Shown here piece by piece: positions 46,745 through 49,990 of a DNA stretch of 64,000 bases. Origin of the DNA: Cerasicoccus arenae (GTDB lineage: Bacteria > Verrucomicrobiota > Verrucomicrobiia > Opitutales > Cerasicoccaceae); the NCBI RefSeq assembly GCF_014651635.1, contig NZ_BMXG01000001.1, forward strand, positions 230,517-294,516. The letters are read 5' to 3'. Position 1 is the stretch's first letter. Every line of letters begins with the position of its first letter. A program made the position numbers and the translations under genes. Under the pieces are notes generated by a model. It saw nothing but the letters and a program-made list of their open reading frames with translations, ran no database searches and was not told where the DNA came from.

Positions 46745-48229
46745 TTATTTTTTCCGGCTACGGCGCATGGGCCTGCGAGGCGTTCCCTTGCCGTGTTTGT
46801 TGAGCGCGTTGTTGCCTTTATTTTGGGACGTGTTTGGCGTGTAATAAGGATTCTCCGCAGACTTGCCGCGCAGGTCAAATTTCACCGGGCAACCATCCAA
46901 ACGGAAATTCTTGTGAAAGCCGTTTTCGAGGTAGCGCAAGTAACTATCTTCCAGCTTCTCCTCACGGTTACAAAATAGTCGAATCTTGAACGGGCGCTGC
47001 GCTACTTGCAGGCCGTAGTAGACCTTGAACCGGCGACCGCCAACGATCTTTGGCTTCTGACGCTCCAGCATATCGCCCAAGACTTTGTTGACCTGCGCAG
47101 TCGGTAGCTCCATTCCAAGCGTCGTATCGACCATCACTGCCGACTTCAGGATTTCATCGACCTGAAAGCCCGTTAGGGCAGACGTGAAAATGATTGGCGA
47201 GTTCGGCAGGAAAAACAGCTCTTCGCGGATGGCATCGATGAAAGCTTTACGGAACTCTTTTTCGCTCGTAAATCCATCCACCTTGGATTGGCGGAAACTG
47301 TCCAACGCGAGGTCCCATTTGTTAACCACGACAACGAGACCAACGCCAGCATCGGCGATTTCGCCCGCAATTTTCTTATCGTGTTTAGCCACGCCCGACA
47401 ACGCGTCCAAAATGAGAAAAGCGACGTCGGCCCGCTCAATCGCGCCCGAGGAACGTAGATTGGAAAAGTAATCCAGTGATGAACCCAGCTTGCGGTTAGG
47501 CTTCATACCAGCAGTGTCGATCAGGCGAAATTTCCATTCCTCGCCCGTCTTGGCCGTATAGTCCAGTTCATGCTCAATGGCGTCGCGGGTCGTTCCCGCA
47601 ATGTCACTCACGATCAGGCGTGGAGCCCGAATCAGCGCGTTCCCCAAAGAGGACTTGCCCACATTCGGACGGCCACACAGGCAGATATTGATCCGGCGAT
47701 CCTCGTCAACCTCCGGTGCCTCTGGCTTGGGGCCGAGAAATTCCGTGATCGCGTCAAAGAGCTCACGCGAGCCTTGCCCATGCTCAGCAGAAACAGCCAG
47801 CACATCGCGAAAGCCCATTCGATGGAATTCAGCGAGGTTGAGCGCGCCGCTTTGGCGGTCGATTTTGTTGACGACTGTCAGCACTTCTTTGCCGGAGCGG
47901 CGAAGCATGTCGGCAACGTCAAGGTCCACTGGAGTCACTCCCTCAGGTCCCTCCACGACAAAGAGCACGAGATTCGCAGCCTGGATCGCCAATTCAACCT
48001 GTTCCTCGGTGGCTTCGTGGATCGCAGCGGGGGTCATCTCGGGCTTAATGCCGATGCCGCCAGTGTCCATGATCAGAAAATCTTCGTCGACGACCGCCAT
48101 GGCCAAGTCACGTGTGACTCCGGGCATATCGTGAACGATGGCCACGCGCTTACCGAGCAGACGGTTAAATAACCGGCTCTTGCCGACGTTAGGCCGGCCT
48201 ACGAGGGCCACGGTGCGGTTGGAAATCAT
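46745..48229 (-). CDS. der: Ribosome biogenesis GTPase Der (EngA)
   Basis: Double GTPase needed for 50S subunit maturation. The 494 residues have two G domains: VGRPNVGKSRLFNRLLGKR with DTGGIG and NKID, and CGRPNVGKSSLGNALIR with DTAGM and NKWD. A C-terminal KH-like domain (VYYGLQVAQRPFKIRLFCN) ends in a very basic tail (PRRPMRRSRKK) that suits rRNA binding. It converges on the TPR gene. The GxxExxY cassette lies directly upstream. Confidence 0.95.
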   Translation of the reverse strand: MISNRTVALVGRPNVGKSRLFNRLLGKRVAIVHDMPGVTRDLAMAVVDEDFLIMDTGGIGIKPEMTPAAIHEATEEQVELAIQAANLVLFVVEGPEGVTPVDLDVADMLRRSGKEVLTVVNKIDRQSGALNLAEFHRMGFRDVLAVSAEHGQGSRELFDAITEFLGPKPEAPEVDEDRRINICLCGRPNVGKSSLGNALIRAPRLIVSDIAGTTRDAIEHELDYTAKTGEEWKFRLIDTAGMKPNRKLGSSLDYFSNLRSSGAIERADVAFLILDALSGVAKHDKKIAGEIADAGVGLVVVVNKWDLALDSFRQSKVDGFTSEKEFRKAFIDAIREELFFLPNSPIIFTSALTGFQVDEILKSAVMVDTTLGMELPTAQVNKVLGDMLERQKPKIVGGRRFKVYYGLQVAQRPFKIRLFCNREEKLEDSYLRYLENGFHKNFRLDGCPVKFDLRGKSAENPYYTPNTSQNKGNNALNKHGKGTPRRPMRRSRKK

Positions 48230-48249
48230 GATGAAAGTGTTTGATTGAA

Positions 48250-48292
48250 TTTTTTAGCCACGGATTGGCGCGGATGAAACGCGGATGCCAGC
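48250..48292 (+). repeat. 43-bp inverted repeat, left arm
   Basis: TTTTTTAGCCACGGATTGGC followed by GCGGATGAAACGCGGATGCC and AGC. It differs from the right arm at one base (A versus G in AGCC[A/G]CGG). Confidence 0.9.
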
Positions 48293-48323
48293 GGGATGTG
48301 AATATGTCGAAAATGCGAATGAG

Positions 48324-48707
48324 TTAGGAGCTTTTCTCTGAGCGGACGAAGCGCTTGAACTCGACCTTAGTCTTCCCAAAATTAACTAAAAGGCCAACAC
48401 GAATGCCAGTAGCTTTCATTTCATTGAGTAATTGAGCTTCATCATTAGGATTATAATTCAAGGCGACCTTGAGTTCGACAACGACTTTTGATTCGACGAG
48501 GAGGTCGGCGAAATAATCTCCGACTATTTGATTCTTGTAAATGACTTGGATCCCTTTTTCAGACTCTGCTGCAATGCCCCGAGAGTCCAGTTCAACGACC
48601 ATCGCCCGCTGATAAACCTTTTCTAAGAATCCATAACCCAGCTCAGTGTGAACATCGAACGCGGCACCAATGACCTCTTTTGTTATCTCCTCAAATTCCA
48701 GTCCCAT
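48324..48707 (-). CDS. GxxExxY protein
   Basis: 127 residues of the GxxExxY family, named for the motif seen here as GYGFLEKVYQRAM (about residues 23-35). The second half shows a PD-(D/E)xK-nuclease-like pattern, DYFADLLVESKVVVELKV (Asp, then Glu-x-Lys), followed by QLLNEMKATGIRVGLLVNFG. Nuclease activity is a structural inference; the biological role is unknown. The gene sits alone inside a 43-bp inverted repeat pair between der and an aminotransferase gene. This fits the scattered, multi-copy distribution of the family. Confidence 0.9.
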   Translation of the reverse strand: MGLEFEEITKEVIGAAFDVHTELGYGFLEKVYQRAMVVELDSRGIAAESEKGIQVIYKNQIVGDYFADLLVESKVVVELKVALNYNPNDEAQLLNEMKATGIRVGLLVNFGKTKVEFKRFVRSEKSS

Positions 48708-48743
48708 TTCATGCTTTTAAAATTATAACATCCGAACGCATCT

Positions 48744-48786
48744 GCTGGCATCCGCGTTTCATCCGCGCCAATCCGCGGCTAAAAAA
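48744..48786 (-). repeat. 43-bp inverted repeat, right arm
   Basis: On the minus strand TTTTTTAGCCGCGGATTGGC followed by GCGGATGAAACGCGGATGCC and AGC. It ends 17 bases before the aminotransferase stop codon. Confidence 0.9.
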
Positions 48787-48802
48787 ACGAATCCAACATT
48801 AT

Positions 48803-49990
48803 CTACTTCGCCACTGGCTCCTTCACCAGTGTATCCACAAATCGCTCGATGGCGTCGGTGGCGCGCATCAGTTGGTCGTAGCTGTTCGAGAAACTGGCGC
48901 GGAAGAAGCCTTCCCCGCTTGGGCCAAACGCAGTGCCCGGCACGACGGCGACCTTCTCAGCTTGCAGGACGCGTTGGCAGAATTCCATCGACGTCAGACC
49001 AGTGTCTCTGATCGACGGGAATGCGTAAAACGTAGCGGCGGGCACGTGACACTTGAGGCCGATTTCGTTGAAGCGGCGGCAGATGAAGTCGCGTCGCTGC
49101 TGATACTTATCTTTCATGTCCAGCACGGCTTCTTCGCCGTTGCGGAGAGCCTCGATCGCGGCTTCCTGCGAGAGGATCGGCGCGCACATCATGGCATATT
49201 GATGGACCTTCATCATGGCCTCGACCAACTCTGGCGTAGAGCAGGCGTAGCCGATGCGGAAACCCGTCATCGCAAATGCCTTAGAGAAACCGTGCAGGAA
49301 AATAGTCCGCTCCTTCATCCCAGGGAAGCTGGCAATGGAGACGTGTTCACCGTCAAAGGTCAGCTCGGCGTAAATTTCGTCTGCAAGGACGACGATGTCC
49401 TTCTCCTTGGCAAACTTGGCAATGCGCTCCAGCTTGGAGCGCTCGGTGACGCCGCCCGTAGGGTTCGTCGGAAAATTGAGCAAGATCGCTTTAACGCCTG
49501 GCTCCCAAGCTGCAATGAGCTTGTCCGGATCGATGGCGAAATCGTCCTCTGCACTAGTGGCCACGGGGATCGCCGTCGCGTGGCAAAGCGTGATGCTCGG
49601 GCTGTAGCTCACGTAGCAAGGCTCGTGATAGATGACTTTGTCACCGGGGTTCAAGATCGCGCGCAGAGCAATATCCAGCGCTTCACTGACGCCCACCGAG
49701 ACGAGCACTTCGTTGTCTGGATTGTAATTAACGTGGAAGAACCGCTCGACGTATTTCGAGATTTCGCGGCGAAGCGTGATGAGCCCTTTGTTGTCGGTAT
49801 AGCTCGTTTTACCCTTTTCCAACGCGTAAATTGCCGCCTCCCGGATATGCCAGGGGGTCACAAAATCCGGCTCGCCAATCCCAAGGGAAATGGCGTCCTT
49901 CATCTGTGACACAATCGCAAAAAAGTCACGGATGCCAGACTTCGGAAGCCCGGCGACGTGATCGGCGACGAATCGTTGAGAGGAGGACAT
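48803..49990 (-). CDS. PLP-dependent aminotransferase class I/II
   Basis: 395 residues of the fold-type I aspartate-aminotransferase family. Visible: LGIGEPDFVTPWHIREAA (substrate glycine loop), NFPTNPTGGVTERSKLE (Asn), VLADEIYAELTFDG (Asp and Tyr contacts) and the PLP lysine in FLHGFSKAFAMTGFRIGY near residue 235, with Arg in FRASFSNSYD. Substrate specificity cannot be fixed. An Lrp/AsnC-type regulator gene lies just upstream on the same strand, suggesting amino-acid-responsive control. Confidence 0.9.
   Translation of the reverse strand: MSSSQRFVADHVAGLPKSGIRDFFAIVSQMKDAISLGIGEPDFVTPWHIREAAIYALEKGKTSYTDNKGLITLRREISKYVERFFHVNYNPDNEVLVSVGVSEALDIALRAILNPGDKVIYHEPCYVSYSPSITLCHATAIPVATSAEDDFAIDPDKLIAAWEPGVKAILLNFPTNPTGGVTERSKLERIAKFAKEKDIVVLADEIYAELTFDGEHVSIASFPGMKERTIFLHGFSKAFAMTGFRIGYACSTPELVEAMMKVHQYAMMCAPILSQEAAIEALRNGEEAVLDMKDKYQQRRDFICRRFNEIGLKCHVPAATFYAFPSIRDTGLTSMEFCQRVLQAEKVAVVPGTAFGPSGEGFFRASFSNSYDQLMRATDAIERFVDTLVKEPVAK

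Follow-up and report, generated by a model that had tools for sequence, protein, structure and literature searches.

A GxxExxY gene within inverted unit-array arms in Cerasicoccus arenae: a candidate REPIN/RAYT-like system with a predicted PD-(D/E)XK nuclease

The GxxExxY locus between der and an aminotransferase gene

The window analysed here, a stretch of 64,000 nucleotides of the Cerasicoccus arenae genome, contains a der/EngA-type GTPase gene (46745..48229, minus strand) and an aminotransferase gene (48803..49990, minus strand), both of which are syntenic in the genus. Between these host genes, which lie outside it, we found an element bounded by arms at 48250-48292 (plus strand) and 48744-48786 (minus strand) that, on direct reading, are identical as an inverted repeat at 42 of 43 positions. 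The sole gene between the arms (48324..48707, minus strand) encodes a GxxExxY protein of 127 aa with conserved E29, D68, E78 and K80, confirming the near-perfect 43-bp arms and single enclosed gene reported in a preliminary description of this DNA. Read inwards, the window arm consists of TTTTTTAGC followed by the units CACGGAT, CGCGGAT and CGCGGAT, at spacings of 10 and 11 nt that correspond to about one helical turn each. In the left arm, six T residues and AGC precede these three units (48259-48265, 48269-48275 and 48280-48286). The right arm, the reverse complement of the left except at one position, carries CGCGGAT in all three units (48771-48777, 48761-48767 and 48750-48756, minus strand). 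An inverted-repeat search stretched the arms to 48233-48292 and 48744-48803 (60 nt at 88%). The repeat scored 85 with 400-bp flanks, against a maximum of 28 for 1000 random 351-bp stretches of the window outside the element, each scored by its best inverted repeat in the 350-bp flanks on either side.

The window protein matches the TIGR04256 model over its full length (positions 1-116 of 116; 138.3 bits, cut-off 35) and also matches PF13366 (135.8 bits, cut-off 22). Across 58 sequences, E29 and D68 are invariant and E78 and K80 are conserved in at least 90%. A structure model of the protein reached a pLDDT of 94.2, and structure comparison matched the predicted fold to lambda exonuclease, LHK-Exo and 4ic1 (SSO0001), which we take to be a Cas4 protein. 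Taken together, the active-site residues, the confident model and the fold matches indicate that the GxxExxY protein is likely to be a PD-(D/E)XK nuclease, with a predicted fold like that of Cas4 and lambda exonuclease and an intact active site. In a second structure comparison, many PD-(D/E)XK enzymes scored moderately (best Z 9.9), and the structural matches therefore do not point to a particular function. The likeness to Cas4, lambda exonuclease and archaeal Hjc lies in the predicted fold and the catalytic residues; the GxxExxY protein differs from them in being a form of about 125 aa that found no match at E<=1 when solved structures were searched by sequence. With the PD-(D/E)XK gene alone between the arms, the earlier picture of a compact, repeat-bounded, transposase-free unit with its own candidate nuclease holds.

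GxxExxY genes were present in all 10 genomes of the family, with 55 matches in total and eight in one genus genome (G003), in line with the multi-copy occurrence that had been described. More widely, 161 of 286 genomes of the class have a match to the window protein (E<=1e-15). Matches occurred in none of 50,697 phage records, in 6 of 72,556 plasmid records and in three viral contigs. The phage and plasmid counts indicate that ordinary vehicles are not the main carriers, and on this basis plasmid or phage cargo was rejected as an explanation. Four of the six plasmid-borne genes have no arms that reach the threshold. Among 5.39 million papers searched, only two mention the name GxxExxY, in passages that do not concern repeats, and the Pfam, TIGR and InterPro numbers of the family led to one more.

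The der-aminotransferase site holds the element in all four genus genomes examined (G000, the window genome, to G003) and in Cerasicoccus frondis, indicating that the window copy was inherited rather than recently moved. In unsaturated comparisons, the dN/dS of the GxxExxY gene is about 0.1-0.2, which indicates purifying selection; the gene has been kept, and kept at the der site. Synonymous sites are near saturation between G000 and G001 (pS 0.92), and the arms nonetheless align readily. The window element is an old resident of its site, as RAYT genes are. This revises the preliminary view of a mobile cassette, which would have been contradicted by a shared locus combined with no copies elsewhere: the copy occupies the der site in all four genomes, but each of them carries further arms at other places.

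Arm dialects and their relation to the protein

To place the window arms in context, we compared flanking repeats across GxxExxY genes. Arms flank 48 of 54 genes (two gene fragments included) in the 10 related genomes and none of 1000 random positions, at a threshold score of 34 that no control reached. Two of the six genes without arms (L015 and L178) fall barely below this threshold. The count of 54 leaves out the der-site orthologue G002:C4:116357, one of the 55 matches, whose site was viewed separately. Further locus sets gave arms at 40/50, 44/68 and 17/18 genes, where the 50-locus set holds one gene twice (G162:C12:13184) and its L228 and L238 repeat L078 and L093 of the 68-locus set. 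Each arm is made up of about three tandem units of about 9-11 nt, and most genes have their own unit dialect. Other arms in the family genomes follow the same plan, with CACAGAG, CGCAAAG, CACGAAG, CGGGAAG and CGCGAAT types, typically at 9-11 nt spacing. By our own reading, the eight matches of G003 have arms in eight different dialects. One truncated GxxExxY gene in the window genome (L035, G000:C2:104977) lies inside arms of another dialect (GAACAGAAGGAAGCAAAG). A literature search with long arm strings gave no occurrence among the matches listed, the 20 listed of 267 containing only the 9-mer ccacggatg.

A search of one genome per species found relatives of the window protein at 65 loci, spread over many phyla. 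At protein identities of at least 55%, 23 of 30 loci have, by eye, arms close to AGCCACGGATGAACACGGATGAAACACGGAT, of the CAC(G/A)GA(T/A) type, and these span Planctomycetes, Nitrosomonadales, KSB1, Lentisphaerae and Verrucomicrobia. The remaining seven comprise five without an arm at the display threshold and two that are mixed. Several more distant GxxExxY proteins have AAG/GAG-type arm units. In a comparison of 101 elements, the arms tend to be more alike the closer the proteins are (Mantel Spearman 0.44; largest of 300 permutations 0.085), and the corresponding value for the outer flanks is 0.04. Of 174 loci, 133 had a reading frame containing the motif; removing identical proteins left 129, and arm filters left the 101. 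Between proteins that are 60-70% identical, the similarity is 0.58 for the arms and 0.18, the background level, for the outer flanks. Some of this covariation can be put down to gene and arms having descended together, but shared descent alone leaves the arms' resistance to decay unaccounted for.

Two single-contig genomes, G094 and G232, represent sister species of one genus whose dialects differ, at the GxxExxY gene as well as among the dispersed copies. In G094, 84 of the 100 listed arm copies are exactly CACGGAT in both units, and in G232, 29 of 45 copies are CACAGAT in both units; the search pattern was written for CACGGAT, so the G232 copies are undercounted. The GxxExxY gene of each genome lies in that genome's main arm type, the exception being one CACCGAT unit in G232. 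We judged the two genes, which adjoin the same host gene, to be orthologous. At this same site, the gene of a third species (G293) lies in CACGAAT arms. Another site (L285) carries a CACAGAT hairpin in G232 and a CACGGAT hairpin in G094. In another genome, G307 (L435-L450), most hairpins are of the CACGGAT type, but the arms of the single GxxExxY gene inspected are CACAGAT; the genome may have a second such gene.

Dispersed hairpins, nesting and empty sites

The window genome contains the same arm as one more inward-facing pair (C4:57462-57989) and as five single arms. Of 24 further arm regions inspected in the three other genus genomes, 14 hold inward pairs 71-509 bp apart. Arms with and without the gene, as had been proposed for searching, are thus both present in the genus. 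The C4 pair (L190), in the window dialect, holds a 73-codon ORF and no GxxExxY gene; this ORF was not seen in the other loci examined, and a tblastn search against 15 interiors from the genus found only the ORF itself. The same interiors gave no match to GxxExxY proteins, and we rejected the idea that the gene-less pairs are deletion derivatives. GxxExxY fragments do occur between arms elsewhere (L035, G270 and G105:C24).

In the class, a two-unit pattern (CCRCGGATNNNCRCGGAT) was found in 87 of 286 genomes (586 copies), and a reversed control pattern in three of 286, all of one genus. At least two arm copies were present in 53 genomes, 49 of which have a match to the window protein, with the reservation that the Fisher test applied to these counts ignores relatedness. 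Most arms observed do not lie beside a GxxExxY gene. An arm mostly unrelated to such genes had been named as a finding that would count against the element, and this holds for the position of individual arms but not for the genomes with at least two copies. Among 25 genomes reached through other loci, 22 have CCACRGAT-type arms, and the control pattern was absent from all 25. The highest count, 155 arms (74+81), was in the L077 record, from Sideroxydans sp. In nine of 12 arm-rich genomes (G061, G093, G094, G105, G179, G193, G194, G223 and G270), a GxxExxY gene or fragment lies in CACGGAT-unit arms, with the exact search pattern matching in seven; G270, with 11 arms, has a fragment only. G121 (24 arms) and G162 (20 arms) have five GxxExxY matches each, all of which were inspected and none of which lies in CACGGAT arms, and G290 (13 arm copies) has no GxxExxY match. 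Gene loss, an assembly gap or another spreading route are alternative explanations for these three genomes.

Neighbouring arms within 600 bp are overwhelmingly in inward orientation. Counts of inward, outward and same-direction pairs, gene-bearing pairs included, were 30/1/1 in G094 (from 100 listed of 133 arms), 10/0/1 in G232, 16/0/0 in G307 and 21/0/0 in G312. The G094 units are near-palindromes, and five of the six that were folded pair nearly throughout, end to end. The inward pair without a gene, a hairpin, seems to be the more mobile entity, rather than a gene cassette. In several G094 hairpins (L292-L297), a further mirrored stretch like CGGAGAGGCAGGACTG lies outside the T-run, perhaps a remnant of a surrounding hairpin of another dialect. 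The first spacer is equal between partner arms in 16 of 16 pairs in G307 (8.5 expected) and in 17 of 23 in G094 (10.7 expected; the 23 of 30 inward pairs in which both arms are exact). In G312, concordance was 1/20 against 1.5 expected, at compared positions past the third unit. Spacer concordance in two of the three genomes indicates that left and right arms tend to change together, as would follow from one arm serving as template for the other in a hairpin.

The arrangement of the arms also bears on whether they are regulatory or structural repeats, acting as operators or mRNA stem-loops, with GxxExxY as a DNA-binding regulator or repair nuclease that has dispersed sites. The arms at both gene ends, the several proteins that start or end inside an arm, and the resemblance of the unit array to a multimeric binding site would all suit such a role. 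An operator has no need of a downstream mirror copy, however, and dispersed inward pairs about 50-250 bp apart that vary between species and are sometimes nested form a pattern of insertion. We therefore consider a regulatory role unlikely.

Nesting was sought as inner inverted repeats in loops of at least 50 nt. In G312, a second inverted repeat above shuffled controls was found in eight of 12 testable loops (19 gene-less pairs), and in the window genus in four of 12 (15 gene-less pairs); none of the 15 pairs of G307 was eligible, so this genome is silent on nesting. In 11 of 12 cases, the centres of inner and outer repeat lie no more than 14 nt apart, a coincidence that short loops partly force, and this suggests that hairpin loops may be favoured insertion targets. 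By eye, all inner repeats except L143 are unit arrays of another dialect. The inner arms of L164 (G003), GAACAGAAGGCTGCAAAGGGAGCAAAG, resemble the arms of a GxxExxY gene in the same genome (L181), GAGCAGAAGGCAGCAAAGAGAGCAAAG. The GxxExxY gene occupies the same central position in its arms as these inner repeats.

We searched for empty sites by joining the flanks of 17 sites and comparing them with eight genomes of the G094/G232 genus; two of 32 comparisons (L303 and L312) could not be placed. At the site of the GxxExxY gene, G296 is empty, its flanks lying 9 bp apart; G294 has a 59-bp stretch that lacks arms of GxxExxY type, and G295 and G297 carry hairpins in a different dialect. Other sites are empty as well: L285 in three species (5-12 bp), L282:720515 in four, L296 in three, plus a fourth that could not be placed, and L287 in one (14 bp). 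These empty sites indicate that whole units were gained or lost between genes, and the empty sites in relatives that had been called for were thus seen for a related element in this genus. Target-site duplication was not above mismatched controls (mean best direct repeat 3.59/3.46, 2.0/2.15 and 2.88/3.0), with inexact element ends; as the joined-flank comparison is between species and the insertion points are inexact, a short or degenerate duplication is possible. MITEs and insertion sequences are similar in being short units with terminal inverted repeats, with and without a gene. The GxxExxY unit differs from them in having no transposase and no detected target-site duplication.

A candidate two-part system and its relation to known repeats

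One alternative is that the arms are terminal repeats moved in trans by a RAYT/TIRYT HUH or DDE transposase, with GxxExxY riding along as a passenger. Y1_Tnp genes are present in 10 of 12 genomes tested, and RAYT relatives flanked by terminal inverted repeats ('TIRtrons'), with dispersed families of these repeats, have been described (PMC3733652). Other cargo between arms, such as the 73-codon ORF of the window genome, and the arm-rich genomes without a matching GxxExxY gene would also suit a passenger. The likeness to TIRtrons and TIRYTs extends to a small gene between terminal inverted repeats; their enzyme, however, is an HUH transposase, and none of 29 Y1 loci (of 30, one being too short) carries GxxExxY-type arms. 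The arm regular expression was found near 0/29 Y1 loci against 27/54, 25/50 and 44/68 GxxExxY loci; it recovers half to two thirds of the GxxExxY arms, so that a miss at a single locus is weak evidence. The window genome and the arm-bearing G243 have no Y1_Tnp match, and Y1 genes with inverted flanks have others, of REP-like type. A passenger would not be expected to covary with the arm dialect, and a target-site duplication was not detected. On these grounds a RAYT was rejected as the mover, given no Y1_Tnp in the window genome, no arms near the Y1 loci and REP-like Y1 flanks, and the passenger explanation, for which Y1_Tnp was the transposase sought, appears unlikely. At 14 of the 29 Y1/RAYT-type loci (L329-L356), the flanks are classical REP-like palindromes distinct from GxxExxY arms, indicating that both kinds of system coexist in these genomes.

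A second kind of small gene in these genomes also lies often in inverted arms. These are S23/four-helix-bundle genes (TIGR02436; L359-L388), of which 15 of 29 (one of 30 being too short) score at least 34. Many of their arms are tandem units of about 7 nt with a dialect per element, and one (L363) is in the window genome at G000:C9:26138. The 23S rRNA intervening sequence described for Coxiella has heptamers and terminal repeats like those of the S23-gene arms (PMC4990558). Intervening sequences with an S23p ORF resemble the GxxExxY element in size (about 430 nt), in their terminal inverted repeats and in having short tandem units next to a small ORF (PMC4990558); they differ in their four-helix-bundle protein, heptamer units and location in rRNA genes. 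This parallel architecture, together with the small ORF, terminal inverted repeats and tandem units of intervening sequences, would suit an RNA-level element, one that is cut out of the transcript once its arms have paired and that spreads via an RNA or cDNA intermediate. The window element lies not within a 23S rRNA gene but between two protein genes, and the predicted nuclease fold is of the DNA-exonuclease type. An RNA-level origin for the GxxExxY element is very improbable.

The closest parallel is with REPINs and RAYTs (REPtrons), in which dispersed inverted doublets of a short repeat form hairpins, and that repeat also flanks a cognate gene to which its type is matched (PMC3116915; PMC8266576). 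GxxExxY arms are likewise inverted doublets dispersed through genomes. RAYTs are HUH tyrosine transposases (Y1_Tnp), whereas the protein here is a PF13366 protein with a predicted PD-(D/E)XK fold, so that it is not a RAYT. REPIN/RAYT systems are further marked by a GTAG/CGTC tag and a single palindromic REP; the arms here, read by eye, are arrays of units of about 9-11 nt, and hairpins occur inside hairpins. We propose, with a probability of about 0.6, a two-part system like REPIN/RAYT in which the cognate enzyme is a PD-(D/E)XK nuclease and the window copy is a 'founder'. One part would be an inherited small PD-(D/E)XK gene (GxxExxY) in the loop of a long palindrome, and the other a set of palindromes dispersed through the genome that have arms of this kind but lack the gene. 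The GxxExxY protein, perhaps as an oligomer with one subunit per unit, would recognise units arrayed in its own dialect, probably on an extruded or single-stranded palindrome, and would nick or trim it. Copying or repair would then install or rewrite palindromes, both between genes elsewhere and within the loops of hairpins already present, and would keep the arms and their dialect homogeneous. That GxxExxY recognises the units and drives their spread is our best inference from the sequence comparisons, and the spread of short palindromes without an ordinary transposase looks like an undescribed route.

A broader and more tentative reading, which we hold at somewhat less than even odds, is that small proteins other than transposases have more than once taken on the role of cognate engine for palindromes that spread themselves, namely GxxExxY with units of about 9-11 nt and S23/IVS proteins with heptamers. 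Paralogue-specific dialects, insertion at hairpin tips with stacked elements, and rRNA intervening sequences as an outlying branch of the S23 class would then belong to one picture. If the two-part system is as proposed, it would give a function to the GxxExxY family and explain a repeat class in Planctomycetes, Verrucomicrobia and other bacteria. It would also provide dozens of natural pairs of protein and unit dialect in which to study recognition by a nuclease of 125 aa.
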